Positions 40,074 to 63,508 of a DNA stretch of 64,000 nt are shown one piece after another. The stretch spans positions 124,001-188,000 of the forward strand of contig NZ_JAENGP010000002.1 in the NCBI RefSeq assembly GCF_016595155.1, in the 5' to 3' direction. The notes beneath the pieces are model-generated. The model searched no databases and was not told the DNA's origin. It saw nothing but the letters and a program-made list of their open reading frames with translations. Origin of the DNA: Advenella mandrilli (GTDB lineage: Bacteria > Pseudomonadota > Gammaproteobacteria > Burkholderiales > Burkholderiaceae_B). The translations under genes and the position numbers were made by a program. Position 1 is the stretch's first letter; every line of letters starts with the position of its first letter.

Positions 40074-41042
40074 ATGAAAAAATTTATAGCTTCAGCCTTA
40101 CTTGGCTGCACACTTAGTACTGGTGCGGCATTAGCCGCTTACCCTGAAAAAAGCGTTCGTATTACCGTACCCTATCCAAGCGGTCAAACTACCGATGTGA
40201 TTGCCCGTTTGCTGGCAGAACAGTTTTCAAAAGAACTGGGCCAGCCTTTTGTGGTTGAAAACAAAGGCGGGGCCGGTGGCATTATTGGTGTGGAAGCCGC
40301 TAAACGTGACAAACCCGATGGTTATAATTTGCTTATTGCCGCATCGGGTCCACTGGGTATTAACCCATCTCTTTATACCAACCTGCCTTATGATCCCGTT
40401 AAGGATTTCACGGCCGTTGGGATGGTTTCCATGGTGCCTTTGTTTCTGGTTACCCGTAACGATTTTCCGGCAAATACGGTCCCCGAACTGATTGAGCATA
40501 TCAAAAAAAATCCGGACAAAATCAATTATGGTTCTGGCGGTATTGGCTTAACCAATCACTTAACCATGGAAATGTTCAAGCAAGCGACTGGTCTTAGCTT
40601 GCTGCACGTTCCCTACCGGGGTGCCACTGCTGCGGTTTCCGGTCTGGTAGGTGGCGATACCAGTGTCATGTTTGAAGCGGCTCCTGCTATTAAACCGCTG
40701 ATTCAGGATGGTCGCCTGAAAGTATTTGCCGTTGCCAATAAAAGTGGTGCCCAGGCTTTTGAAGGCGTACAGCCACTGGATAAACTGGGCGTACCCAACT
40801 TTGATGCCACTGCCTGGATCGCATTAATTGCGCCAACCGGTACACCCGATGAAGCCATTCAGACATTAAACAAAACTATGAGCAAAATTCTGCAGGATCC
40901 TGAACTTAACGCCAAACTGGCCACTATTGGCAATGAGGTTTTTATTGCCAGTCCGCAAGAAAGCCAGGCATTTATTGAAAAGGAAATTGAAAGTTGGGGG
41001 AAAGCGGCAAAAGCGGCGGGTGTTGAACCTGCAAAACTATAA
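40074..41042 (+). CDS. Bug-type tripartite tricarboxylate receptor
   Basis: A 322-residue periplasmic binding protein. The signal peptide ends ALA at residue 21; the mature protein begins AYPEKSVRITVPYPSGQTTDVIARLLAEQ, then VVENKGGAGGIIGVEAAKRDKPDGYNLL and PSLYTNLPYDPVKDFTAVGMV, diagnostic of the Bug/TctC family. No TctA or TctB membrane gene is present, a situation typical for the expanded Bug family in Alcaligenaceae. Location after gntR suggests it binds the acid consumed by the adjacent CoA module. Confidence 0.9.
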   Translation: MKKFIASALLGCTLSTGAALAAYPEKSVRITVPYPSGQTTDVIARLLAEQFSKELGQPFVVENKGGAGGIIGVEAAKRDKPDGYNLLIAASGPLGINPSLYTNLPYDPVKDFTAVGMVSMVPLFLVTRNDFPANTVPELIEHIKKNPDKINYGSGGIGLTNHLTMEMFKQATGLSLLHVPYRGATAAVSGLVGGDTSVMFEAAPAIKPLIQDGRLKVFAVANKSGAQAFEGVQPLDKLGVPNFDATAWIALIAPTGTPDEAIQTLNKTMSKILQDPELNAKLATIGNEVFIASPQESQAFIEKEIESWGKAAKAAGVEPAKL

Positions 41043-41093
41043 AAACAGGTTTTTCTTGTCTTAACAAACCATTTTTAATAGCAATATTTTTTC

Positions 41094-41147
41094 AAAGCTG
41101 TATTTATCGTTGGATTTATATTCCAAATCAATAAATACAGCTTTTTT
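41094..41147 (+). terminator. Rho-independent terminator after the Bug gene
   Basis: A 14-bp perfect outer stem (aaagctgtatttat at 41094-41107, inverse at 41131-41144) enclosing a 23-nt loop with a small inner stem, followed by T bases. It ends the Bug/gntR transcript. Confidence 0.75.
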
Positions 41148-41182
41148 ATTGATCAATTTTATATTTTTAAGATAATTTTAGA

Positions 41183-41223
41183 AAAAGCCGAAAAACAGGT
41201 GTTTATGCTGTTTTTCGGCTTTT
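41183..41223. terminator. Second strong terminator hairpin
   Basis: aaaagccgaaaaacag (41183-41198) is perfectly complementary to 41208-41223 with a 9-nt loop; the 16-bp stem has A/T runs on both outer arms. It lies 36 nt beyond the first terminator and would stop readthrough in both directions. Confidence 0.75.
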
Positions 41224-41275
41224 CTTTAATGTTATTAAACTTATTTATATATAAATGATTAATAGATAGATACTC

Positions 41276-41284
41276 TGTGGATAA
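41276..41284 (-). promoter_or_regulatory. DnaA box (perfect, TTATCCACA)
   Basis: tgtggataa on the plus strand, exact complement of the DnaA consensus box. First of three perfect copies in the AT-rich region. Confidence 0.6.
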
Positions 41285-41361
41285 GTCTGTTTACCCTATA
41301 ATTTCCTTTATTTTCAATGAATTGCAGTAAAATTTTGCTGTTTACTCCTGTTCTTTTTGAA

Positions 41362-41370
41362 TTTGGATAA
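41362..41370 (-). promoter_or_regulatory. DnaA box-like site, one mismatch (TTATCCAAA)
   Basis: tttggataa on the plus strand reads TTATCCAAA on the minus strand, one base off TTATCCACA. Confidence 0.4.
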
Positions 41371-41429
41371 AGTTGAACAAGTTGGCAGATTGATTTTCAC
41401 CTGTCGCTTATGAACTTTTCATACAAAAA

Positions 41430-41438
41430 TTATCCACA
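41430..41438 (+). promoter_or_regulatory. DnaA box (perfect, TTATCCACA)
   Basis: Exact nine-base consensus on the plus strand, 26 bp before the next perfect copy in the same orientation. Confidence 0.6.
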
Positions 41439-41455
41439 AGCTGCTTTCTTAGTAG

Positions 41456-41464
41456 TTATCCACA
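41456..41464 (+). promoter_or_regulatory. DnaA box (perfect, TTATCCACA)
   Basis: Exact nine-base consensus, followed by an A/T tract of about 55 bp that could be the unwinding region. Confidence 0.6.
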
Positions 41465-41583
41465 GGCTCTTTTTTATTTTATTCCCTCTTTTTTGATGAT
41501 TTTTTGAGCAAATTGATGGGTTTATCTAAAAAAATGATTTTAGGTATTTGAAAATGTGCCATGACGATTATTTATATCTATAC

Positions 41584-41602
41584 GTTTAAATATATTGATA
41601 TA
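41584..41602 (-). promoter_or_regulatory. SqrR/BigR operator, copy 1, at the SQR promoter
   Basis: Minus strand reads tatatcaatatatttaaac, matching 18 of 19 bases with the copy at 44741-44759. It overlaps the -35 (ttgata, 41595-41600) of the SQR promoter, whose -10 (tataat, 41618-41623) is 17 bp downstream. Binding of the repressor here would block RNA polymerase. Confidence 0.65.
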
Positions 41603-41623
41603 TTTTTTGTTACAACCTATAAT
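41595..41623 (+). promoter_or_regulatory. SQR promoter (sigma-70)
   Basis: TTGATA at 41595-41600 and TATAAT at 41618-41623 with a 17-bp spacer, about 50 bp upstream of the SQR start. Very close to consensus and overlapped by the putative SqrR operator. Confidence 0.7.
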
Positions 41624-41673
41624 ATTTGTGAATAGGTCTTTATGTTTTACATAAGCATCACCAAGGAGATAAT

Positions 41674-43014
41674 ATGGCTAACACCAAGACAGAGTTATCA
41701 ACAGCCAGAAGAAAATTTATTAAAATCATGGGAGCTTCCAGTCTTGGCATGTCTGGCATGGTTTCTACTACTCAACTTGCCTCTGCGCAAACAGTACTAG
41801 AGGCTAACGTCAGTATTGTGATCGCTGGCAGTGGCCTGGCAGGTCTGGCAGCTGCGCATCGTTTGCGCAAGCAGCTTCCCAATGCAAAAATCACCATCAT
41901 TGATGCCAAGAAAGAACATAATTACCAGCCGGGATATACTTTGCTGGCAACTGGTATCTGGCATTCAACCAATAGTGTTCGTGATCGCAATGAACGTTTA
42001 ATGCCACCCGGGGTTGATTGGGTGCAAGAAGCCGTTGCCAGTTTTGAGCCCGAACTGAACCAGGTCCAAACCGTCTCTGGCAAAAAATTTGATTATGATT
42101 ACTTGGTTGTCGCCACGGGGCTGGTTTTAAAATACGACGAAATTGAAGGCATGGATACGTCCATTATTGGCCAGGATGGTGTGGGCAGTGTTTATCATAG
42201 TCCCGATGCCGCCGCCAATACCTGGAGAGCTATGGATGCGTTTCGCCAGAAAGGCGGCCGCGCCGTCATGACACTGGCGCCAACATTCATGAAATGTGCT
42301 GGTGCGCCCCTGAAAATGACATTTATGGTGGCAGACTGGCTTAATGAGTCAGGCGTTAAAAACAATTCACAGGTTGATTTTTTTGCGCCATCCACCTCTA
42401 TTTTCAGTGTGAAAACGGTTAATGATCTGGTGTTAAAGCGCTGGACTGCCTTGCCGGTTACCACCAATGTCCATTTCCATCGGCAACTGACCGGGGTTGA
42501 TATTTCGGCCAAAACCGCCTACTTTACCGATCAGAACGGTGCGGTTCATAAAGAAGATTATGATTTCCTGCATGTGGTGCCTCCCATGTATGCCCCCGAT
42601 GCAGTAAGGCAAAGCAGCCTGGTAGTTCCCGATGGTGTGCAAAAAGGCTGGCTGGATGTTGATAAGGGAACCCTTCAGCACACCCGTTACCCGAATGTGT
42701 TCGGATTGGGTGATGTCAATGGTACGCCACGCGGAAAAACAGCGGCCACCATCAAGAAAAGTGCCCCCCTTATGGTGCATAACTTGTTGCAACAAATGCA
42801 AGGCAAACCGGCAGACCAGATATTTGATGGTTATACTTCGTGCCCCATGCTGATTCGTCGTGGTTCGGCCTGGCTGGTTGAATTCAACTATGCCGGAGAG
42901 CTGACCCCCACCATGCCACTTATTGATCCCTTAAAGGATAGTTACCTGGCCTGGTTCCTTGAAGATGAATTGTTAAAACCCGCTTATATGGCTGTCCTTA
43001 AAGGTAAGGCTTAG
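41674..43014 (+). CDS. Tat-exported sulfide:quinone oxidoreductase-like flavoprotein
   Basis: A 446-residue FAD-dependent enzyme that probably oxidises sulfide and reduces quinone. N-terminal Tat signal RRKFIKIMGASSLG, then the FAD-binding GSGLAGLAAAHRL. Redox-active cysteine candidates are C208 (FMKCAGAPLK) and C390 (YTSCPMLIRRG), as in SQR. VFGLGDVNGTPRGKTAATIKK is the second FAD motif. The C-terminal WFLEDELLKPAYMAVLKG matches SQR-type proteins. Tat export suggests a periplasmic location. The small membrane protein follows at 15 nt; SqrR-type operators lie upstream. Confidence 0.85.
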   Translation: MANTKTELSTARRKFIKIMGASSLGMSGMVSTTQLASAQTVLEANVSIVIAGSGLAGLAAAHRLRKQLPNAKITIIDAKKEHNYQPGYTLLATGIWHSTNSVRDRNERLMPPGVDWVQEAVASFEPELNQVQTVSGKKFDYDYLVVATGLVLKYDEIEGMDTSIIGQDGVGSVYHSPDAAANTWRAMDAFRQKGGRAVMTLAPTFMKCAGAPLKMTFMVADWLNESGVKNNSQVDFFAPSTSIFSVKTVNDLVLKRWTALPVTTNVHFHRQLTGVDISAKTAYFTDQNGAVHKEDYDFLHVVPPMYAPDAVRQSSLVVPDGVQKGWLDVDKGTLQHTRYPNVFGLGDVNGTPRGKTAATIKKSAPLMVHNLLQQMQGKPADQIFDGYTSCPMLIRRGSAWLVEFNYAGELTPTMPLIDPLKDSYLAWFLEDELLKPAYMAVLKGKA

Positions 43015-43548: not shown

Positions 43549-44346
43549 ATGAATATCGATCTTACAGGTAAAACTGCCATTGTGACTGGCTCTACCGATG
43601 GTATTGGTTTGGCGATTGCCACTGGGCTTGCCCAAGCAGGAGCCAGCGTCATCATTACCGGGCGTACCCAATCACGTCTTGATGACGCATTGGAAAAAAT
43701 TCACGCTGCCGCTGCCAATGCACCTGAAGTGCTGGGTGTGCTTGCCAATATTGGTACTGCAGAAGGCTGCCAAACGTTAATCGCGGCCCAACCTCAGGCT
43801 GATATTCTGATTAATGCGCTAGGTATTTATGGCGGCAAAGAATTTTTTGATATTACTGATGCCGATTGGGAAGAAATTTACCAGGTTAATGTACTAAGTG
43901 GCATTCGTTTATCCCGTCATTATGCCCAAGGCATGAAAGAAAAAGGCTGGGGACGGATTCAGTTCATTTCCAGTGAATCAGCCCTTAATATTCCTGCTGA
44001 AATGGTTCATTATGGGGTAAGTAAAGCCGCTTTGCAGGGTGTTTCACGTGGGCTTGCCAAAGTATTGGCGGGTACAGGCGTAACCGTGAACACTGTTTTG
44101 CCAGGACCAACCCGAACAACAGGCGCCATCAATATGATGAAAAAAATGGCGGATGAGCGTGGTGTGTCTGCATTGGAAATGGAAAGTATTTTTTTGAAAG
44201 AAAACAGGCCTTCCACCTTGCTTAATCGTTTTGCCAACCCCGAGGAAGTGGCCAATATGTCCGTTTATATTGCGTCTGAACAGGCTAGCGCAACAACGGG
44301 CGCTGCTTTGCGTGTTGAAGGTGGTATTGTGGAAAGCATTGCTTAA
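43549..44346 (+). CDS. SDR family oxidoreductase
   Basis: A 265-residue SDR. The cofactor motif GSTDGIGLA starts near residue 14 (TGSTDGIG), the NAG-like motif is NALGIYGG, the serine is in FISSES, and YGVSK is the catalytic YxxxK. VNTVLPGPTRTTG follows. The substrate is unknown. It sits alone, with its own promoter region, and shares a LysR-like operator with the gene cluster at 45.9-48.7 kb. A role in aldehyde or ketone reduction under the control of that LysR is possible. Confidence 0.85.
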   Translation: MNIDLTGKTAIVTGSTDGIGLAIATGLAQAGASVIITGRTQSRLDDALEKIHAAAANAPEVLGVLANIGTAEGCQTLIAAQPQADILINALGIYGGKEFFDITDADWEEIYQVNVLSGIRLSRHYAQGMKEKGWGRIQFISSESALNIPAEMVHYGVSKAALQGVSRGLAKVLAGTGVTVNTVLPGPTRTTGAINMMKKMADERGVSALEMESIFLKENRPSTLLNRFANPEEVANMSVYIASEQASATTGAALRVEGGIVESIA

Positions 44347-54214: not shown

Positions 54215-54928
54215 TCAGAAACTGCGTTTGGCCGCATTGGTCAGCATTTGCAGGAAAGCATTGTTATTGATATGCCATTCTTTCCGCTTGCCTGTGACAT
54301 AGCCTTTATGTTGCCATTCGTTAAGCAAACGGCTAAGGGTTTCAGCGCGTATGCCCAAATGGCTGGCCAGCTGGCGCTGATTCAACGGCAGCTCGACCTT
54401 ATTACCTTGTTTATGCTGTTGTTCAAGAAGATAGCTGGCCAGTCTCTCGGGTGCTGAACTGGCGGTTATCCATTCAACCTGGTTGATCTGACGATAAACA
54501 TTCAGGCTCATGCTGGCAAGCAGGCTCATGGCCAATTCAGGCCATTGATGACAGGCCCGGTGTAAAGCGTCTCTTTTCAGGTGGTACACCACACTATCGG
54601 TACGAACCCGGGCAGACATTGGGTAGCGGCCGTGTGGCATAAACATGGCTGTTTCGGCAAAAACCTGACTGGCATCAAAAATACTGAATACTCGCTCATC
54701 GCCATCCAGGGAGTAGCGAAAGACTTCGACCTGGCCTGATTCGATCAGGAAATAGCAGGCGGCCCGCTCACCTTCGTTAAACAGTTGCTGCTCGGGGCAA
54801 TATCGCTGCAGGTGTGCATTTTCCAGTACGGTTTCCATGATGCAAACCGGCAAACCGTTAAAAAGTCGGTGCTTGCCTAACAGGTCGGCCGCGTTTTCCA
54901 GCTTTGGGGAAAGATTGACTTTTATCAT
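54215..54928 (-). CDS. Crp/Fnr-family regulator (Dnr/NnrR-like)
   Basis: About 237 residues; the frame begins at 54961 and I place the start at 54928, but neither start has a good ribosome-binding site. An N-terminal cyclic-nucleotide-binding-like barrel contains LFNEGERAACYFLIESGQVEVFRYSLDGDERVFSIF. There is no N-terminal four-cysteine cluster, so it is not an oxygen-sensing Fnr. The helix-turn-helix QRQLASHLGIRAETLSRLLNEW contains E196, S199 and R200, equivalent to the FNR residues that read TTGAT. Together these point to a Dnr/NnrR-type NO-responsive factor. Confidence 0.85.
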   Translation of the reverse strand: MIKVNLSPKLENAADLLGKHRLFNGLPVCIMETVLENAHLQRYCPEQQLFNEGERAACYFLIESGQVEVFRYSLDGDERVFSIFDASQVFAETAMFMPHGRYPMSARVRTDSVVYHLKRDALHRACHQWPELAMSLLASMSLNVYRQINQVEWITASSAPERLASYLLEQQHKQGNKVELPLNQRQLASHLGIRAETLSRLLNEWQHKGYVTGKRKEWHINNNAFLQMLTNAAKRSF

Positions 54929-54996
54929 TTTGGATTTAAGAAAAGAATGGGATGATTTCATTATTAATAATAGTTCTTATTCTCATTGTATTCAAT

Positions 54997-55992
54997 ATGA
55001 ATGTTTTTTCATTATCAAAATTTATCGTCTTTTCCCGGTGTTTATTTTTATTTTTAATGCTATGGCAATTGCCGGCCCATGCCGCCCCCGCTTATAAAAA
55101 ATTAACGCTGGGTGGTCCGGCAGCTGTTGTCAGTTACCCTTTGCTGCATATGCTTGAAACCAATGCTCTGCAAGATTACACCGAAGTACTGTCCTTCAGG
55201 TTGTGGCAATCACCGGACCAATTACGTGCCCTGTTAACCCGCAAGGAAATTGATTTGACGGCGGCGCCCGTCAATTTGCCAGCGCTCATGTTTAATCTGG
55301 GTGAAAAAGTCAAACTGCTGAATATTTCAGTATGGGGAATTTTGTGGCTGGTCAGCAGTGATCCGGACGTCAAAGGGTTTGATGATCTTAAAGGCAAAGA
55401 GTTGCTGGTGCCCTTCCAGCGTGATCTGCCTTCCGTGTTGCTGGATACCTTGCTGGCAGCCAGAAACACAGGCCAGGAAACCGTCAAGCTGCGCCCCGTG
55501 CGGGATGCACAAGATGCCATTACCTTGATGTTGTCGGGCAAGGGGCAACATGCCTTGCTGGTGGAACCCATGGCGGCCATGCTGCTATGGCGCAACCGGC
55601 AACAGGGTGAACGGGAACTGTTCCGGGTACAGAGCCTGGAAGAAGCCTGGCGCGAAACCTTCCCGAACAAGGCTGAATTGCCCCAGGCCGGCCTGATGGC
55701 CAATTCGAATGTGGCCCAGGATACGGAATTGCTTAAGGCCGTGGACAAGGCGTATGCCGAATCGGCCAGGTGGTGCAAATCCAATACCCTGGCATGTGCG
55801 GAAATGGTGAACCGGCATATCCCGCATCTGCCTGTTCCTGCCGTAGAAGAAGCCATTCGTGTTACCCGTCTGGAAAGCCTGTCTGCCAACCAGATCCGTC
55901 CGCAACTGGAAAATCTGTATGGTTTGCTGGGTAAGCGTTTTCCCAAGGCAGTGGGTAACAAAATGCCTGCAGTGGAATTTTACGGACCATGA
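54997..55992 (+). CDS. ABC transporter substrate-binding protein (NMT1/SsuA-like)
   Basis: About 331 residues with an N-terminal hydrophobic signal (FSLSKFIVFSRCLFLFLMLWQLPAHA). The mature part shows the SsuA/TauA-like type II pattern LTLGGPAAVVSYPLLHMLETNAL and WLVSSDPDVKGFDDLKGKELLVPFQRDLPSVLL. The start is uncertain: the open frame begins at 54952 and a second ATG, preferred, is at 54997. Ligand unknown. It opens an operon with permease, ATPase and TonB-dependent receptor; its stop overlaps the permease start. Confidence 0.75.
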   Translation: MNVFSLSKFIVFSRCLFLFLMLWQLPAHAAPAYKKLTLGGPAAVVSYPLLHMLETNALQDYTEVLSFRLWQSPDQLRALLTRKEIDLTAAPVNLPALMFNLGEKVKLLNISVWGILWLVSSDPDVKGFDDLKGKELLVPFQRDLPSVLLDTLLAARNTGQETVKLRPVRDAQDAITLMLSGKGQHALLVEPMAAMLLWRNRQQGERELFRVQSLEEAWRETFPNKAELPQAGLMANSNVAQDTELLKAVDKAYAESARWCKSNTLACAEMVNRHIPHLPVPAVEEAIRVTRLESLSANQIRPQLENLYGLLGKRFPKAVGNKMPAVEFYGP

Positions 55993-56771
55993 AAACAGTC
56001 ATGCAGAAACAGACCGGGCCAACCTCCCGTTTATGGTCATGCATTGGCGTATTGCTCATACTGGCCGGCTGGCAAATAGCGGCCATGTATCTGGGCCCCA
56101 TGCTTATGGCCTCACCCCTGGATACCTTTAAAAATCTGGTACCCATGCTAACAAGTACGCATTTTCTGGACAATGCCAGTGTCAGCCTGTGGCGCATCGG
56201 TGTTGGGGTCGGGTGCGGTTGTCTTATTGGTTTTATCCTGGGTGTGCTGGCCGGACATAATGCTTGCCTGCGTGGCCTGCTTGAACCATTGCGCTGGGTA
56301 TTAATGGCGATGCCGCCGGTAGTAGTGGTGATGCTATCCATGCTGTGGTTTGGTCTGGGTTCACCCATGGTGATTTTCATGACCGTACTTATGATGGCGC
56401 CAGGCATGTATGTGAATACGGTTAAGGGCATGTTGCAGGTGGATCGCAATCTGGTTGAAATGACGCATGTATACCGTTTCGGACGCTGGCGCAAGTTGTT
56501 GCATTTATATTTGCCTGCCTTGACTGCCCCTCTGACCGCTGCGTTGCTGATTGCTGCCTGCGGTGGTGTCCGGATGGTGGTAATGGCAGAGGTATTGGGT
56601 GCGGAAAGCGGGGTGGGTTATGCCCTGGCCAATGCCCAGAGTGTTTTTGACAATACCGAGATATTTACCTGGATCATTCTGGTTTTGTTACTGGTTGCCG
56701 TGATTGAGTTTGTCCTGCTGCAACCCTTGCAGCGCCGCATGCGTCAATGGCAGGAGAATGACCATGTTTGA
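55989..56771 (+). CDS. ABC transporter permease (SsuC/NrtB-like)
   Basis: A 260-residue inner-membrane permease with six predicted helices. Motif LEPLRWVLMAMPPVVVVMLSMLWFGLGSPMVIFMTVLMMAPGMYVNTVKGML is a BPD_transp_1 pattern of the nitrate/sulfonate/taurine family; the EAA loop is in LVEMTHVYRFGRWRKLLHLYLPALTAPLTAALLIA. It overlaps the SBP gene by 4 nt and the ATPase by 8 nt. Confidence 0.88.
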   Translation: MKTVMQKQTGPTSRLWSCIGVLLILAGWQIAAMYLGPMLMASPLDTFKNLVPMLTSTHFLDNASVSLWRIGVGVGCGCLIGFILGVLAGHNACLRGLLEPLRWVLMAMPPVVVVMLSMLWFGLGSPMVIFMTVLMMAPGMYVNTVKGMLQVDRNLVEMTHVYRFGRWRKLLHLYLPALTAPLTAALLIAACGGVRMVVMAEVLGAESGVGYALANAQSVFDNTEIFTWIILVLLLVAVIEFVLLQPLQRRMRQWQENDHV

Positions 56772-57447
56772 ATTGGACAATGTCTCAGTAAGGTTTGGCT
56801 GCAAAACCGTTCTGGACAATATCAGTTTTTCCCTGGCATCGGGTGAGCAGGTTGGTTTGCTGGGGGTTAGCGGCGCCGGCAAAAGTACCCTGTTGCGCCT
56901 GGCTGCCGGTTTGTTGCAGCCGGATTCTGGCCGTTTAAGCAATACCTTTCTGAATCCCATACTGGTTTTTCAGGAGCCCAGATTATTGTCCTGGCGCCCG
57001 GTCATAGAAAATATCTGCATTCCCTTGCGTGCCAAGGGAATGGCCAAAAATCAGGCACGGGAATGTGCTGGATACTGGTTGGAAAAAGTGGGTTTACGGG
57101 ATGCTGCCGGGCAATGGCCGGGACAGCTGTCGGGCGGTATGGCCCAGCGTGTGGCACTGGCACGGGCATTTGCCATGGAACCGGATTTATTGTTGCTGGA
57201 TGAACCTTTCAGTGCGCTTGACCCGGGCCTGCGGGCCAGCCTGGGCCAGCTATGCAGTGAGTATCTGGAGCAGAACCGTGTTGCCATGCTATGCATCAGT
57301 CACAATCCGCACGAACTGGTGGAAATAACGGATCGTTGTGTACTGGTTGAGCAGGGTCGTTTAAGACCATTTGAACCCGATCACTTGCAGGACGATGAAG
57401 CAAGAAAAAAAATGGCCGATTTACTTTATCAAACGTTGTTAGGATAG
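56764..57447 (+). CDS. ABC transporter ATPase (SsuB/NrtD-like)
   Basis: A 227-residue ATPase: Walker A GVSGAGKST, Q-loop LVFQEPRLLSWRPV, signature LSGGMAQRVALARAF, Walker B LLLLDEPFSALDP, H-loop CISHNPHELVEI. The start at 56764 has AGGAG seven bases upstream, overlapping the permease stop by 8 nt. It is relatively short, lacking C-terminal extensions. It powers the SsuC-like permease; TonB-dependent receptor gene follows in 8 nt. Confidence 0.9.
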   Translation: MFELDNVSVRFGCKTVLDNISFSLASGEQVGLLGVSGAGKSTLLRLAAGLLQPDSGRLSNTFLNPILVFQEPRLLSWRPVIENICIPLRAKGMAKNQARECAGYWLEKVGLRDAAGQWPGQLSGGMAQRVALARAFAMEPDLLLLDEPFSALDPGLRASLGQLCSEYLEQNRVAMLCISHNPHELVEITDRCVLVEQGRLRPFEPDHLQDDEARKKMADLLYQTLLG

Positions 57448-57455
57448 TCCTTATC

Positions 57456-59558
57456 ATGTCAGTTCCCCATCAATTCAACAAACTTAAACTTATTGTTGTA
57501 TTAAGTGCTGTCTGGGCCAATAGTGCAATTGCCCAGGAAACCGTTACTTTACCCGCCATCAGAGCCACCTTGGAAAACCCTTCTTCGTTGCGTGTGGACA
57601 CGGATCGTGAACAGGCCAGGCTTAACCAGGTACCGGGTGGCACCAATCTTGTCAAACCACAGGAACATATCCGCCTGAATGTATTGCGTGATGCACTGGA
57701 CCATCAGCCGGGTATTATTGTGCAGGATTTCTTCGGGGGTATTGACCAGCCCCGCCTGAATATTCGTGGTTCAGGCATTCAAAGCAATCCGGTCAATCGA
57801 GGCGTACTGCTCATGCAGGATGGCCTGCCACTGAATGAAGCGGATGGTTCATTTGTGATTGGTTTTCTGGAACCCCGCAACAGTGGCCTGATTAGTGTAC
57901 GCCGTGGTGCCAACGCCATTTCACCCTCCGCCACTACCCTGGGTGGCGAGCTTGACTTTCAGTCATTGACTGGTACGGAAGGCAACCAGATTGGTATCGG
58001 TTTGGGCAGTTTTGGTTATTGGGGCGTGAATGGGGAGATTGGCCTGGAGGGTGACACGTTTGACGGGCGTATTAGTTTCAGCCATGACAAATCGAATGGA
58101 TATCGCCACCATTCAAGCTCCAGACGAAGCAGTTTCAATGCCAATCTGGGCTTCAGACGGGATAATTTTGAGAACAGAACCTATCTGTCCTATACCGATC
58201 TCAAATTTGATATTCCCAACGTTATTCCCAAAGCCCGCATGTATGACGATCCGCGCAGTGTATTGGGTGACTATAACGAACAGTTTGACCGGGTCAATAA
58301 TATTTATTTGCGGGACCCGAATCGCAAATCATCGCAATTCAGGGTGGCCAATCAAAGTTATTGGGGCACCGAGGCACTGAACCAGACTTTTGGGCTGTAC
58401 TGGCAAACGATTGATGACACTTTCACCAGTCCGCTGGTTTCCACGCCAACCGACGGGCATACCTATGGAGCCCAGTGGCAACTTGCTGGCCAGGCCGGAT
58501 CCGTTGATTACCGTGTGGCCCTGAACTGGTCACGCAGTGATATGGACCGTGACCTGTACGCTGTTAATCCGGCCAATGGCAGCCGCATGCAACGCTTTGG
58601 CAGCTATTCAATGAAGGCTGAAAACCGTAATGCCCTATTGGGCCTGAACTGGCATTTTGCCCCCGACTGGAGTGCGGTGGCAGATATCAAATTCAGCCAG
58701 GCAATCCGTAATGTTGATGGCCGTCATGGCAGTGCCAACCTGAACCAGGATTGGTCTTATACCAGCCCCAGAATCGGCTTGATATGGAAACCCTCGGACA
58801 GCTTAAGACTGTATGCCAACATCAGCCGCAGTAATGAGGCACCCACTTACTGGGAAATTATTAACGGTGATGTTCCCAACCCCATGAACCCGGCATCAGC
58901 CACCACCTCATTGAGCAAGCTTGACCTGCAACGGGCCCTGACTTATGAAATAGGTGCAGATGGCCGTTTTGGCAGTGAGCAGTATGCCATGAACTGGTCG
59001 CTGTCCCTTTACCATAGCAAGGTGAAAGATGAACTGATGTCTGTCAGCACTGAAAACGGAACGGCAGCAGGAACCTTCAACTATCGTGGAAAAACCCGAC
59101 ACCAGGGTATAGAAGCCGGTATTAATGGTGTTCTGCCGGGGTTTGGCAATGGGTTGTTTGATTACCGGCTGGCCTATACCTTAAGTGATTTCCGCTTCCG
59201 TGGCGGTGAATTTGCCGGTAACCAGATTGCCGGTGTGCCCAAGCATATGCTGAGCGCTGAACTGATGTACCGCACGGGCGGCTGGCGTTTTGGCCCCAAT
59301 GTGCGCTGGATGGCATCCAAAACACCTACCAACCATGCCAATATAGACGGGACAGAACAAGATTCCTATGCCCTGCTGGGATTTAAGATCGCGTATGAGC
59401 ATAACAAACACTGGAGTGCCTATATTGCAGCCGATAACCTGACCGACAACACCTATGCCAGTAGTTATGTCATTCGCAATACCGCCACGGCCATGATGCC
59501 CACCTTTCTGACGGGCAATGGCAGGAGCGTGTCGGGGGGTATCAGCTTCAAATTTTGA
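57456..59558 (+). CDS. TonB-dependent outer membrane receptor
   Basis: A 700-residue receptor. The signal peptide ends IAQ (about residue 26) and a TonB-box-like segment ETVTLPAIRATLEN follows. The plug domain shows DALDHQPGIIVQDFFGGIDQPRLNIRGSG and QDGLPLNEADGSF, GFLEPRNSGLISVRRGANAISPSATTLGGELDFQSL. The barrel runs to the C-terminal SVSGGISFKF. The pattern resembles the YncD type. Adjacent ABC genes suggest an uptake path across both membranes. The ligand could be a metal chelate or a small organic molecule. Confidence 0.9.
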   Translation: MSVPHQFNKLKLIVVLSAVWANSAIAQETVTLPAIRATLENPSSLRVDTDREQARLNQVPGGTNLVKPQEHIRLNVLRDALDHQPGIIVQDFFGGIDQPRLNIRGSGIQSNPVNRGVLLMQDGLPLNEADGSFVIGFLEPRNSGLISVRRGANAISPSATTLGGELDFQSLTGTEGNQIGIGLGSFGYWGVNGEIGLEGDTFDGRISFSHDKSNGYRHHSSSRRSSFNANLGFRRDNFENRTYLSYTDLKFDIPNVIPKARMYDDPRSVLGDYNEQFDRVNNIYLRDPNRKSSQFRVANQSYWGTEALNQTFGLYWQTIDDTFTSPLVSTPTDGHTYGAQWQLAGQAGSVDYRVALNWSRSDMDRDLYAVNPANGSRMQRFGSYSMKAENRNALLGLNWHFAPDWSAVADIKFSQAIRNVDGRHGSANLNQDWSYTSPRIGLIWKPSDSLRLYANISRSNEAPTYWEIINGDVPNPMNPASATTSLSKLDLQRALTYEIGADGRFGSEQYAMNWSLSLYHSKVKDELMSVSTENGTAAGTFNYRGKTRHQGIEAGINGVLPGFGNGLFDYRLAYTLSDFRFRGGEFAGNQIAGVPKHMLSAELMYRTGGWRFGPNVRWMASKTPTNHANIDGTEQDSYALLGFKIAYEHNKHWSAYIAADNLTDNTYASSYVIRNTATAMMPTFLTGNGRSVSGGISFKF

Positions 59559-59601
59559 GTAATTCAGAATTATTGTAGTAGTCAGGAGACCATCGGGAAA
59601 A

Positions 59602-60504
59602 TTATGATGATGTTTCCGGGTTCAGGGAAAATGTTGATTTCAATAAATCAATCAGGGTTAGTGCGGCAACGGATTGCGCATTTTCCCTGACCCTGACCAG
59701 GCTGATAATCCGGTTCGGGATAGCCAGTTCAAGAGGAATCGCCCGGATGGATGGTTTGATGAATGGAAACAGTGCCATTTCCGGAATAATTGATATGCCA
59801 ATATTGTTTTCGACCAGGCCGGCAACGGTGGACAGGTTGAAAACCTCCATATCAGAAACTAGTTTTTCCGGATAGAAAGAGGCATCCAGATGCTGCCGTA
59901 TACTGGTGGATTTGGCAAACTGGATAATCGGATATTTCATCACTTCTTTATGTGTCAGTTTCTTTCTGGACGCCAGGGAATGGTTTTTTGAACATACCAG
60001 GAAAAATGAATCTGAACATAATTTCTCACAGGACAATTGCGGGTGCAGTGACACGACGGAAGTCAGGGCAAAATCAACTTTCTTTTCATTGACCAGGCGC
60101 AGGCATTCATCTGCACTGACGTCAAACAGGGAAACACTGATGCCCGGATACTCTTGCCGGAATTTGGCCACAACAGGAATCAGGCAGCCTACGGAAACGG
60201 ATGGCAAGGCTGCCACTGAAACCTGGCCGGTTTGTCTGGAAACATGCTGTTTGAGCTCGGTAAAGGCATTTTCAAAGTTTTGCAACAATTCATCTGCAAT
60301 GGCTTCAAATAACAGGCCTTCCGGTGTCAATACAACATTACGTGTATTTCTGATAAACAACTTTGTACCAACCAGCTGCTCCAGGTTTTGAATAAGGACA
60401 CTTAAGGCTGGCTGGGTTAAATGACAGAGATTGGCAGCCTTTGTAAAGTTCTTTTCAGCTGCCAATACCCTGAACGCTTTCAGGTGTTTGGTTGAGATAT
60501 CCAT
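59602..60504 (-). CDS. LysR-family regulator of the AtuA/Bug cluster
   Basis: A 300-residue LysR protein: HTH FRVLAAEKNFTKAANLCHLTQPALSVLIQNLEQLVGTKLF, then an effector domain beginning near residue 90 (VSVAALPSVSVGCLIPVVAKFRQEYPGISVSLFDVSADEC). It is downstream of the Bug gene (22 nt) and so is the last gene of the AtuA operon, probably autoregulating it. The effector is unknown. Confidence 0.88.
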   Translation of the reverse strand: MDISTKHLKAFRVLAAEKNFTKAANLCHLTQPALSVLIQNLEQLVGTKLFIRNTRNVVLTPEGLLFEAIADELLQNFENAFTELKQHVSRQTGQVSVAALPSVSVGCLIPVVAKFRQEYPGISVSLFDVSADECLRLVNEKKVDFALTSVVSLHPQLSCEKLCSDSFFLVCSKNHSLASRKKLTHKEVMKYPIIQFAKSTSIRQHLDASFYPEKLVSDMEVFNLSTVAGLVENNIGISIIPEMALFPFIKPSIRAIPLELAIPNRIISLVRVRENAQSVAALTLIDLLKSTFSLNPETSS

Positions 60505-60525
60505 ATAAAAGCGTTTAAATAAATA

Positions 60526-61497
60526 TTATTGAACAGTAACCCCTGCCTTGGCAACAATATCCTGCCACTTTTCGGTTTCATTCCGCTGGAATTCGGCCAG
60601 TGCCTCAGGCGTACTGGACTCAGCCACAATACCCATTGTCAGGAAGTTCTGTTTGGTTGCCGGATCATTCAGGATTCGGTTGAATTCCTGATTAAGTTTA
60701 TCCACAACGGGTTTGGGTGTACCTGCCGGTACATAGGAAGCAAACCAGCCAACCATTTCATATCCCTTCAGGCCGGATTCGTCAAGTGTAGGTAAATCCG
60801 GAGCAACCTCCGTTCTTTCACGAGTTGAAACAGCCAATGCAGTTAGCTTGCCCTCACGTGCCAGGGGTAATGTAGTGGCTACATCGGCAATCATCATGTG
60901 AACCTGTCCTCCAACAGTATCAACAACGGCCTGGGGATTACTTTTATATTCAACATTACTTATTTGTACATTTCCCATAATCTTGAGCAATTCCCCACTC
61001 ATTCGGGCTGACGTACTGCCACTGCCAAAAAAGAATTTATTGGGATTATCTTTCAGGTATTGAATAAATTCAGGGACGGTTTTGGCTGGAATACTGGCAG
61101 GATTGACAACCAATGCCATGGGAATCGTACCCAGTTTTGAAACGGGTTCAAAATCTTTGACCGGATCATATGGCAGGCTTTTAAATAAGGCGGAGTTACT
61201 GGCATGAGTCGTGTTTGACGTAATAAATACCTTATAGCCATCGGGCGCCGCTCTGACAACGTCTTGCGCGGCAATGAATCCACTTGCCCCCGCCTTGTTT
61301 TCCACGACAACACTTTGTCCCCATGATTTTGCCATCTCGCCGGCCAATACACGTGCCAGTTTATCGGTTGCACTGCCCGCTGTAAACGGAACTACGAATG
61401 TTATGGGTTTTTCGGGATAGGTGTTAGCTATTACCGGGCTGGAAAAAACAGTAAAACCCAGTACTGATACGGTAAGCAGTTTATTGAATTTATTCAT
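60526..61497 (-). CDS. Bug-type tripartite tricarboxylate receptor 2
   Basis: A 323-residue periplasmic binding protein. The ATG at 61497 has AGGAGA seven bases upstream; the frame extends back to 61578 without support. The signal peptide ends IAN, then TYPEKPITFVVPFTAGSATDKLARVLAGEM, VVENKAGASGFIAAQDVVRAAPDGYKVFI, and SLPYDPVKDFEPVSKLG. Same family as the Bug gene at 40074. It lies between AtuA-like genes and LysR, so its ligand is likely the carboxylate handled by AtuA. Confidence 0.92.
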   Translation of the reverse strand: MNKFNKLLTVSVLGFTVFSSPVIANTYPEKPITFVVPFTAGSATDKLARVLAGEMAKSWGQSVVVENKAGASGFIAAQDVVRAAPDGYKVFITSNTTHASNSALFKSLPYDPVKDFEPVSKLGTIPMALVVNPASIPAKTVPEFIQYLKDNPNKFFFGSGSTSARMSGELLKIMGNVQISNVEYKSNPQAVVDTVGGQVHMMIADVATTLPLAREGKLTALAVSTRERTEVAPDLPTLDESGLKGYEMVGWFASYVPAGTPKPVVDKLNQEFNRILNDPATKQNFLTMGIVAESSTPEALAEFQRNETEKWQDIVAKAGVTVQ

Positions 61498-61528
61498 TTT
61501 GTCTCCTGTGTCTTTTTTTAAATGATTT

Positions 61529-61849
61529 TTAAATAGTAACTTCCAAATCAAGTAATCTGAAAGAATTGGATTTGCCATGCTTATCCAGATTCAGACTTGA
61601 ATTCACACCTCCTTCCAATACATTGTCAATCACAAAATTCAATGCTTTTAAATTATGTAACTCATATCGCTGAACATGGGTTGCCCCGCGATGCATAAAA
61701 CATTGATGTACTTTTTCTGCAGTGATTTGCTCCAGCAGAGCTGGCCAATGCGTGCCATCATAGGGAATCAGGCTAATGTTCAAACGGTTGCCCTTGTCGC
61801 CCGCCCGGGCATGGGCAATATCATGCAATTTAACGATAAGGTTCGCCAT
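61529..61849 (-). CDS. AtuA-like C-terminal domain protein (separate small subunit)
   Basis: A 106-residue protein that matches the C-terminal ferredoxin-fold-like region of AtuA-type proteins: LHDIAHARAGDKGNRLNISLIPYD and YELHNLKALNFVIDNVLEGGVNSSLNLDKHGKS. In Pseudomonas AtuA both regions are in one chain. Here it starts directly after the stop of the large gene with an AGGAG-like site, so the two parts form a pair. Function: unknown part of an acyl-CoA-type or terpene carboxylation pathway. Confidence 0.8.
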   Translation of the reverse strand: MANLIVKLHDIAHARAGDKGNRLNISLIPYDGTHWPALLEQITAEKVHQCFMHRGATHVQRYELHNLKALNFVIDNVLEGGVNSSLNLDKHGKSNSFRLLDLEVTI

Positions 61850-63220
61850 TCAATTCTCCTGTATAAAATGAAAATGAGTTGAGATCAATGACCGTGGCAC
61901 CAGATAAGATACGGTCCTGACACTGCTTTTCACACTGGTGCGTACCCCACCTCCCCCAGCAGGACCGCAGCAATACAGGGCATTAACTTCATTCATCAAG
62001 CGTTCCACATTTTTTTTATCTGCGCCGTTAACCGCCATGCGTACCCGTACATCAGTCAATTGGTTTAACGGCATGGAAGCAAGCAAATCCGCTTTATTGG
62101 AATCAAGCACACTTACGGCTCCAATCAAATCAAGCCGATAGTCAAACCTAGCATCAAGTTTATCGGCCCGTTCTTTTAGTACGTTTGCAGCCAGTTTTGC
62201 CCTGTTACCCGCATTCTGGCCAGCATAAGAGATTTCGCCTTCACCAAACCAGCTACCCATAAAGGACACGGTAGCTTTCAGGGTATCAGGTCGTGGTTTT
62301 CCTTTGGCCCCGGTGAGCTCAACCTGATTGTGGCCTGTTTCTGTTAACGCTACCTGAGTAATATCCAGGATGACATCAGGTGTATAGTAATTGGCAGGAT
62401 CGTGAATTTCATAGAGCAGCTGTTCCTTGACGGTCTGTATGCTTACCAGGCCACCGGTATTATCTGCCTTGCTGATAATAACCCGTCCGTCTTCAAAAAT
62501 TTCGGCAATTGGAAAACCGACATTGGCCAGATCGGGTACGTCTTTATAACCCGGGTCGGCAAAATAACCCCCGGTTACCTGCGAACCACATTCAAGTAAA
62601 TGCCCTGCCATGGTAGCAGCGGCAATCTTGTCCCAATCCTGCCAACCCCAGTCGAAATGCTCAACTACTGGTCCAACGGTTAAAGCAGGATCAGCCACCC
62701 TGCCGGTCACTACTATTTGAGCGCCCTGTGTCAGGGCCTGGGCAATGGATTCAGCACCGATATAAACATTTGCGGCAATCGGATCATCGGCAGATATGGA
62801 AAGCTCAAGATCTCCTTCCCATATTTGTAATTCGGACAGATTTATTTTATTGAGAATATCATCACCTTCAATGACAGCAATTTTCAGGTGATGAATATCT
62901 TGTTCTTTTGCCAATTTCTGGATGAGGCGGGCAGCGCCTGATGGGTTTGCAGCACCAAAATTGCTGACAATCGGAATATGATGCGCTACACAGTCTTTTA
63001 AAATCGGAGTGAGAATATCTTCCAGCAGGGGTTCATAACCCAGTTGGGCATTCTGGTTCTTTGCCAATTGTCCCAATGCAAGCGTTCTTTCAGCCAGCAT
63101 TTCAAAAATAAGCACGCTTTTTTTCTGTCGTGATATTAATGTTTTAACAATAGCCTGTGCTGCATCTACCCGATCACCAGAAAAACCGGCACCACAGCCT
63201 ATCAAAATACTTTCTGCCAT
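61850..63220 (-). CDS. AtuA family protein (DUF1446)
   Basis: A 456-residue protein of the acyclic terpene utilisation AtuA family. The start at 63220 has AGGAGA seven bases upstream; 63238 is less likely. GCGAGFSGDRVDAAQAIV near the N-terminus, then IPIVSNFGAANPSGAARLI, GRVADPALTVGPVVEHFDW and VTGGYFADPGYKDVPDLANVGFPIAEI are family patterns. CGPAGGGGVRTSV lies near the C-terminus. First gene of the operon AtuA, small partner, Bug and LysR. The enzyme activity is not defined for the family. Confidence 0.88.
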   Translation of the reverse strand: MAESILIGCGAGFSGDRVDAAQAIVKTLISRQKKSVLIFEMLAERTLALGQLAKNQNAQLGYEPLLEDILTPILKDCVAHHIPIVSNFGAANPSGAARLIQKLAKEQDIHHLKIAVIEGDDILNKINLSELQIWEGDLELSISADDPIAANVYIGAESIAQALTQGAQIVVTGRVADPALTVGPVVEHFDWGWQDWDKIAAATMAGHLLECGSQVTGGYFADPGYKDVPDLANVGFPIAEIFEDGRVIISKADNTGGLVSIQTVKEQLLYEIHDPANYYTPDVILDITQVALTETGHNQVELTGAKGKPRPDTLKATVSFMGSWFGEGEISYAGQNAGNRAKLAANVLKERADKLDARFDYRLDLIGAVSVLDSNKADLLASMPLNQLTDVRVRMAVNGADKKNVERLMNEVNALYCCGPAGGGGVRTSVKSSVRTVSYLVPRSLISTHFHFIQEN

Positions 63221-63508
63221 TTTGTCTCCTGTATACATTGTTATTAAATTTATATGATCTATTCTATTGTTAATTGATTAAGAATATAAATTAATTATTT
63301 ATATCAAATAATAAATAAATTATATAAATCAAGATATATAGGTAGGGATCAATTGATGATGAGTAGCTTGTGAAGCAATAAGTTTTACAACAATCTGATA
63401 AGTAGTGACTCATTAAAAAAACCCCTCAAGCGGAAAGGGAAATTCCGCTTGAGGGGGTTATAGGCTGGCAAACGGTTTGGTTTGCCTTAAGCCTGGTTCA
63501 GCAGGTGC
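63221..63508. promoter_or_regulatory. AT-rich promoter region upstream of the AtuA operon
   Basis: About 290 bp without a gene. The first 150 bp are very AT-rich and hold the AtuA operon promoter; the last 100 bp hold the katA terminator. No operator was assigned. Confidence 0.45.
63421..63457 (-). terminator. Rho-independent terminator of katA
   Basis: cccctcaagcggaa (63422-63435) and its exact inverse (63443-63456), 7-nt loop. On the minus strand the stem is followed by seven Ts, so it terminates the catalase gene. Confidence 0.85.

Follow-up and report, generated by a model that had tools for sequence, protein, structure and literature searches.

The interval between a TctC/Bug receptor gene and an SQR-like oxidoreductase gene in this DNA almost certainly contains a genuine second oriC, an additional copy of the Advenella origin. 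This copy, ori1, occupies positions 41222-41468 (plus strand) of the window, by which we mean the whole 64,000-nt stretch that was analyzed (C23:124001-188000 in G000, a draft genome of 3.28 Mb and 38 contigs). The canonical oriC, ori2, lies outside the window on the same contig (C23:238452-238694), 73 kb away and inverted relative to ori1. It is likely, judging from sequence, that ori1 is used in vivo together with ori2, which would place two working DnaA origins on one chromosome. This reading is based on homology, layout, conservation, a position shared by four genomes, skew turns and an asymmetry of substitutions. A more far-reaching interpretation, which we also think probable but hold less firmly, is that two paralogous DnaA-dependent oriCs have been kept across several species and both fire in the same round, with an additional termination zone between the origins, on the side of dnaA that faces ori1. 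In other words, this would be multi-origin replication in the archaeal style. To our knowledge, bacteria are generally regarded as having a single origin on each chromosome.

The ori1 interval

The left neighbor of the interval encodes a TctC/Bug periplasmic receptor (40074-41042, plus strand; PF03401, 2.7e-74) and the right neighbor an SQR/FCSD-like FAD/NAD(P) oxidoreductase (41674-43014, plus strand; PF07992, 7.1e-14). A preliminary description of this DNA had remarked that these are not genes usually found around oriC, and this is correct. The usual neighbors gidA, dnaA and parAB, which are customary rather than defining, are absent beside ori1. It is also true, as had been stated, that the interval is distant from dnaA. 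The dnaA domain is at C23:200350-200832, ~35 kb from ori1 and between ori1 and ori2 (the genes adjoining it are presumably dnaN and gyrB, from their order and size). This distance is not in itself unusual because oriC and dnaA are ~39-51 kb apart in G001, G003, G005, and G009, the congeners in which it can be measured on one contig. The GC content is ~0.52 left of ori1 (window ~1-39000) and ~0.47 right of it (41000-64000). A search of the window with Rfam at the gathering threshold gave no match, and there is no tRNA within it.

Three exact TTATCCACA boxes in two orientations and a fourth with one mismatch had been described, and all four are present. The exact boxes are R1 (41276-41284, minus strand), an R2-like box (41430-41438, plus strand) and an R4-like box (41456-41464, plus strand). 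The weak box found by the box scan, TTATCCAAA, is at 41362-41370 (minus strand), followed by a central origin motif, TTGAACAAGTT (41373-41383, plus strand), with TGAACAA invariant in 14/14 aligned origins. A long AT tract had been noted after the third box. It exists as a T-rich tract (41467-41560), but it is poorly conserved (53% identity in three species) and the likelier unwinding element precedes the first box. This putative DUE (41222-41271) lies beside R1, includes ATATATAA, which is invariant in 14/14 aligned origins, and has the weakest helix of any 50 bp in the interval (99.94th percentile on C23). The corresponding AT-rich weak element of ori2 is at the 99.91st percentile. Two terminators had been proposed as well. 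The stem-loops themselves fold well, one being the probable terminator of the Bug gene (41094-41144, plus strand; -20.5 kcal/mol, z -7.6) and the other terminator-like (41180-41225; -22.4 kcal/mol, z -6.9), but a terminator scan restricted to loops of 3-8 reported neither. Beyond the T-rich tract is the promoter region of the SQR-like gene (41561-41640, plus strand), which is 81% identical in three species and has a sigma-70 match of 11/12.

Could the boxes be there by chance? The shuffle test and a cluster scan of C23 reject this. The window has five exact boxes, where shuffled sequence has 0.56 on average (0/100 shuffles reach 5), and three within 189 bp would be expected ~5e-5 times per genome, by arithmetic from the genome-wide count. 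The box count that had been proposed as a check gives a mixed answer. Exact boxes are hardly enriched across the genome, with 31 against 24 for a reversed control pattern, but at least three TTAT[ACT]CACA boxes per 300 bp occur at only two places on C23, ori1 and C23:238454.

The layout is that of an oriC. All 14 aligned origins have an AT-rich element with ATATATAA, then AGAT, CTCTGTG.ATA (R1), ~85 nt, TGAACAA, and R2. An R4 box, TTATCCACAG, follows R2 by ~17 nt in 13/14 and is missing from copy 1 of G004, the MAG Alcaligenaceae AS09scLD_384. TTATCCAGA occupies the weak-box position in both G004 copies. Copy 1 of G008 (Advenella alkanexedens LAM0050), of G002 (A. faeciporci KCTC 23732) and of G004 has an extra exact box centrally, and there are three IHF-like sites at one mismatch in ori1 and none in ori2. 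The E. coli oriC is ~245 bp long, with the DUE next to R1 and R4 at the opposite end. Its layout resembles that of the Advenella copies, but E. coli has one copy per chromosome.

Conservation was compared, like skew and substitutions below, in the three species G000, G008, and G002. Within the ori1 core (41223-41466), 82% of positions are identical in all three, compared with 67% on the Bug side, 53% beyond R4 and 57.6% for third codon positions in the vicinity (n = 6190). The R1, R2, and R4 boxes are 100% identical, as is the 14-nt R1 context CTCTGTGGATAAGT. At ori1, then, a box cluster beyond chance adjoins a weak-helix, AT-rich DUE, within DNA homologous to the oriC of the lineage and at a strand-skew minimum in the three species. 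The suggestion that this is a candidate origin is well supported by full-length homology to the genus oriC, the DUE, the conserved boxes and a skew turn within 1 kb.

A conserved DnaA-box cluster with no parS-like site nearby might also be a titration or regulatory site resembling datA or DARS, which would tune initiation at ori2 without firing. Sites of that type bind DnaA without a DUE or initiation, and ori1 has a DUE-like element. Not only the boxes but also the DUE and the entire oriC layout are retained at ori1, and the skew turns there. We consider a regulatory role of this kind improbable.

Two copies in the small-genome Advenella

A blastn search with the interval against the genome of the window and 40 relatives identified ori2, which has ~68-69% identity with ori1 and is homologous to it end to end (blastn 69% at C23:238452-238687, 14-origin alignment, model match of 162 bits). 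The two have the same 245-bp DUE-R1-TGAACAA-R2-R4 layout. Where they differ is in setting. ori1 has the opposite orientation, is between the Bug and SQR-like genes and lacks gidA, parAB, and parS-like sites. The two paralogous copies share a contig in G000, G002, and G008 and lie on separate contigs in the MAG G004; all four genomes are drafts. ori1 occupies the same Bug/SQR interval in all four of these small-genome Advenella-type genomes, the MAG included. The six larger congeners (4.3-4.9 Mb) have a single copy by blastn: G001 (A. incenata DSM 23814), G009 (Advenella sp. S44), G003, G005, G006, and G007. Four of the six have one match each in the model search described at the end, among the matches listed. 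Outside the genus, blastn found one weak match (G016), to the SQR promoter part and not to the origin. A pattern scan of a genome-contig collection found 15 stretches, nine from Advenella or the AS09 MAG and six from unrelated MAGs.

ori2 is taken as the oriC of the genus from its gidA/parAB synteny, its parS-like sites, and the skew rather than from experiment. Its neighbors are gidA and parAB (domains checked), and in a gene-by-gene comparison of G003, G009, and G001 the single copy adjoins gidA and the parA/parB orthologs. The genome has four exact parS-like sites, all of them at ori2 (C23 232.9-242.4 kb), and the genome-wide scan found none near ori1. Two earlier ideas about ori1 find no support in this. 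It had been called a possible relocated origin, but the canonical oriC is still at its conserved gidA-parAB place with its parS-like sites, 73 kb away. It had alternatively been attributed to a secondary replicon, but it shares a contig with the canonical oriC. A plasmid or secondary replicon is rejected because C23 carries dnaA, gidA, and parAB. The 5 kb around ori1 has only two short matches in PLSDB, both in an SDR-like gene (window 43549-43685). On the gidA side of ori2, across an aminotransferase gene, there is a looser group of DnaA boxes (C23:239855-240006) in 10/10 congeners scanned. Given this group, the canonical oriC may be bipartite.

When did the duplication occur? Most simply, it would have been in the ancestor of the small-genome Advenella clade, a date that the trees leave uncertain. 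When the 14 cores are placed in a tree, copy 1 of G000, G008, and G002 splits from the rest (82), whereas copy 1 of G004 joins copy 2 (50; whole group 89). The Advenella origins form one group (74) in the midpoint-rooted family tree, with the single-copy origins nested in copy 1 (54-81). This placement would date the duplication to before the small-genome clade. Pairwise identities favor the younger date because they are ~0.64-0.76 between copy 1 and copy 2 and 0.53-0.63 between either copy and the single-copy origins. In A. faeciporci (L026/L035) the initial part of the R2-R4 spacer is identical in both copies and unlike copy 2 of the sister species. This suggests gene conversion between the two origins.

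Strand asymmetry and probable firing of both origins

Cumulative skew of the full genome had been named as a check on the candidate. Along C23, GC skew turns from negative to positive at window 40250-41500, where an unsupervised change point is at C23:164250 (window 40250). On C23 the skew is negative from 1 to 164 kb, positive from 164 to 196 kb, negative from 196 to 240 kb and then positive. The exceptions are a weak stretch at 72-92 kb (one block positive) and one negative 4-kb block within 164-196 kb. The segmentation was made without reference to DnaA boxes. It placed change points at 164250, 194500, and 239250 in G000, at 214250, 229750, and 283750 in G008 and at 89500, 107250, and 180250 in G002. 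Model matches to ori1 start at 165225, 214884, and 90090, and those to ori2 end at 238694, 282460, and 178847, respectively. The change points are thus 0.6-1.0 kb from ori1 and 0.6-1.4 kb from ori2 in the three species. All three have a W-shaped skew with opposite signs in the two segments between the origins, and the flip is present in genes of both orientations taken together and also outside ORFs. The strand effect at third positions is +0.05 to +0.09 and -0.05 to -0.08 between the origins (outliers: a G002 piece at 110-134 kb with -0.12 and a G000 piece at 180-195 kb with only +0.02) and 0.10-0.19 outside. On the short contigs of G004, skew goes from -0.07 to +0.02 across ori1, a weak turn, and from -0.02 to +0.10 across ori2. 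The single-origin genomes G003 and G001 have a roughly simple V at the gidA origin. Besides its V, G009 has a skew-reversed patch (G009:C16:385-425 kb) where no origin copy is reported, probably an inversion. The patch is a caution that an inversion by itself may turn the skew around.

This last point matters for the main rival explanation. Perhaps ori1 is a silent duplicate, or a former origin, beside a block that was inverted or moved from the other replichore, and the W-shape reflects rearrangement instead of firing. The positive-skew block is indeed not collinear with relatives, a conserved gene within it is inverted with respect to dnaA and the G009 patch without an origin copy shows that such patches occur. 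The part at 144-195 kb has no collinear counterpart in the stretches around dnaA of G003, G009, and G001, and 12.6 kb of it searched genome-wide in four relatives gave scattered matches. In G000 the far end of the block falls at a break in synteny beside dnaA. The duplication was therefore accompanied or followed by rearrangement. Collinearity with the gidA arm holds for most of a query from right of ori2 (288-308 kb). The 20-kb queries from the left arm (C23:80-100 and 124-144 kb) map partly to the dnaA arm, ~290-410 kb beyond dnaA, in three relatives and partly elsewhere. A single inversion that displaced half of a tandem pair is unsupported, since dnaA to ori2 keeps the orientation of the relatives. 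Between the origins, window 54215-63240 (C23:178215-187240) is a gene block without close matches at the corresponding place of G008 and G002.

Nevertheless, several observations do not fit a silent ori1. Its core is conserved above its surroundings, the change points are within 1 kb of it in three species and another block that is inverted relative to three relatives, at C23 ~131-142 kb, keeps a normal negative skew. The most direct argument comes from recent substitutions. If the block had only been moved, it should now be acquiring changes of the leftward type, but its third positions show otherwise. G008 and G002 are sisters (92% identity in aligned positions) with G000 outside (86-87%), and substitutions on their terminal branches were polarized with G000. 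The measure compares C>T per C with G>A per G at third positions, as a log2 ratio, and takes the mean of the gene orientations. It is -0.53 in the left arm of ori1 (54 genes), +0.51 from ori1 to 178.4 kb, 13 kb to its right (11 genes), and -0.49 between the dnaA region and ori2 (16 genes). In direction, the block right of ori1 is thus opposite to both neighbors (genes permuted, one-sided: p = 0.0003, the smallest value possible with 3000 permutations, and p = 0.003). Adding the gene at 187-195 kb keeps the main contrast (p = 0.0003 and 0.005), and each branch alone has the same signs in the three main regions. This asymmetry agrees with one fork moving rightward from ori1 and another moving leftward from ori2. 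With these recent changes in the block of the rightward-fork type, unlike those of both neighbors, we consider a silent ori1 unlikely.

The signal is not universal. It is carried by only 11 block genes, whose bootstrap gives zero or less in 14% of draws. The value for the block with all sites included is +0.37 [-0.18, 0.77], its sites outside ORFs have no signal (0.00 [-1.66, 1.25]) and 187-195 kb, with 2 kb alignable, goes in the reverse direction (-0.94 [-1.46, 0.03]). All of these count against the reading that both origins fire. Right of ori2 the third-position value is -0.39 in six genes, which is uninformative because only one of them is on the minus strand; all sites there give +0.28 [-0.25, 0.76]. 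The A>G/T>C ratio separates the block (-0.30) only from the part between dnaA and ori2 (+0.41), not from the left arm (-0.05, -0.18), which likewise counts against firing of both origins.

If both origins fire, ATP-DnaA would assemble on R1, the weak box, R2, and R4 of ori1, melt the AT-rich DUE beside R1 and load DnaB, and two forks would depart. The leftward fork would copy the left arm. The rightward fork and the fork coming left from ori2 would meet at some point between ori1 and the dnaA region. Skew is weaker between the origins than outside, which suggests that in some rounds only one origin fires and the interval is copied passively. On a model-dependent assumption, namely that skew is at equilibrium and scales with net fork direction, the net rightward copying to the right of ori1 and the net leftward copying to the left of ori2 add up to double the fraction of rounds with both origins firing. 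This yields a co-firing fraction of 0.43 [0.22-0.67] for G000 and 0.40 [0.18-0.63] for G008, and the estimate from substitutions, 0.92 [-0.10, 2.02], is too wide for use. ori2 is probably the stronger or earlier origin, because all of the parS-like sites are there and the internal skew switch is nearer to ori1 than the midpoint in G008 (229.75 kb) and G002 (107.25 kb). The off-center switch, the restriction of parS-like sites to ori2, the loss of R4 from ori1 of G004 and the weak skew turn there, the rearrangement of the positive-skew block and the draft state of all four double-copy genomes also count against both origins firing.

The weaker skew between the origins has another possible source, an origin switch in progress. 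In this scenario ori1 would be the sole active origin now and the skew at ori2 a relic, or the reverse. Yet recent substitutions are of the rightward type right of ori1 and of the leftward type left of ori2, which requires both, and in G000, G002, and G008 neither copy has more than one mismatch in any of R1, R2, and R4. A switch is very improbable.

Comparison with known origins

Other chromosomes with two origins are known or proposed. Gao (2015) poses the question of multiple bacterial origins and lists candidates, putative double origins that were likewise predicted from boxes and skew on one chromosome (PMC4403523). Each case in that table is one strain with boxes, neighbor genes and skew, whereas in Advenella there is a conserved duplicate in four genomes together with substitution evidence. 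Pseudomonas aeruginosa has two putative chromosomal origins, and both elements are capable of autonomous replication (PMC4403523). One alone is essential in laboratory growth there; the Advenella copies are known from their sequence alone. Bipartite origins such as those of B. subtilis and H. pylori (PMC4403523) also have two box clusters on one chromosome, with the halves close together. ori1 and ori2 are instead two complete origins, inverted and 73 kb apart, each with its own AT-rich weak element, and they do not share one unwinding region.

Vibrio cholerae NSCV1 likewise has two origins on one natural chromosome. Both are reported to be active in this natural fusion, and ori2 to be silenced in NSCV2 (Bruhn, 2018; PMC6284228). 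NSCV1 is a fusion of oriC and plasmid-type ori2 replicons, whereas the Advenella origins are paralogous oriCs common to several species and the second is not from another replicon. Further work includes engineered two- and three-origin E. coli alongside the statement that bacteria consistently use one origin (PMC7174701), a summary of support for multiple oriCs (PMC10225481) and fused dicentric Agrobacterium chromosomes (PMC12153318). No report of a duplicated oriC in Advenella was found among the matches listed from open-access titles and abstract openings, and no paper on Advenella and a replication origin was found in the open-access literature. A duplicated oriC kept in several species, including at least two named strains, would make the question of why there is only one origin directly testable in nature. 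How are two similar initiator targets 73 kb apart kept in synchrony, and how do they share DnaA? How do forks fuse away from the terminus, and how does segregation proceed when one origin alone has parS sites?

A wider survey of 151 family genomes used a sequence-only model built from the 14 origin cores, with strict filters. It matches 115/151. G004, G007, and G009 are not among the genomes it lists. Distant inverted pairs (67-88 kb; 67 kb in G008 and 88 kb in G002) occur only in G000, G002, and G008, among the matches listed. Two matches are also found in 40 genomes outside Advenella, and in all 35 of these for which both places are listed they are tandem, on the same strand and within 4.3 kb of each other. 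Examples of such tandem oriC-like modules are G149:C33:8682/10938, G053:C4:359814/362477, and G155:C1:6129228/6133478. The weak family tree groups some tandem pairs within one genome, hinting at repeated duplication or concerted evolution in other genera.
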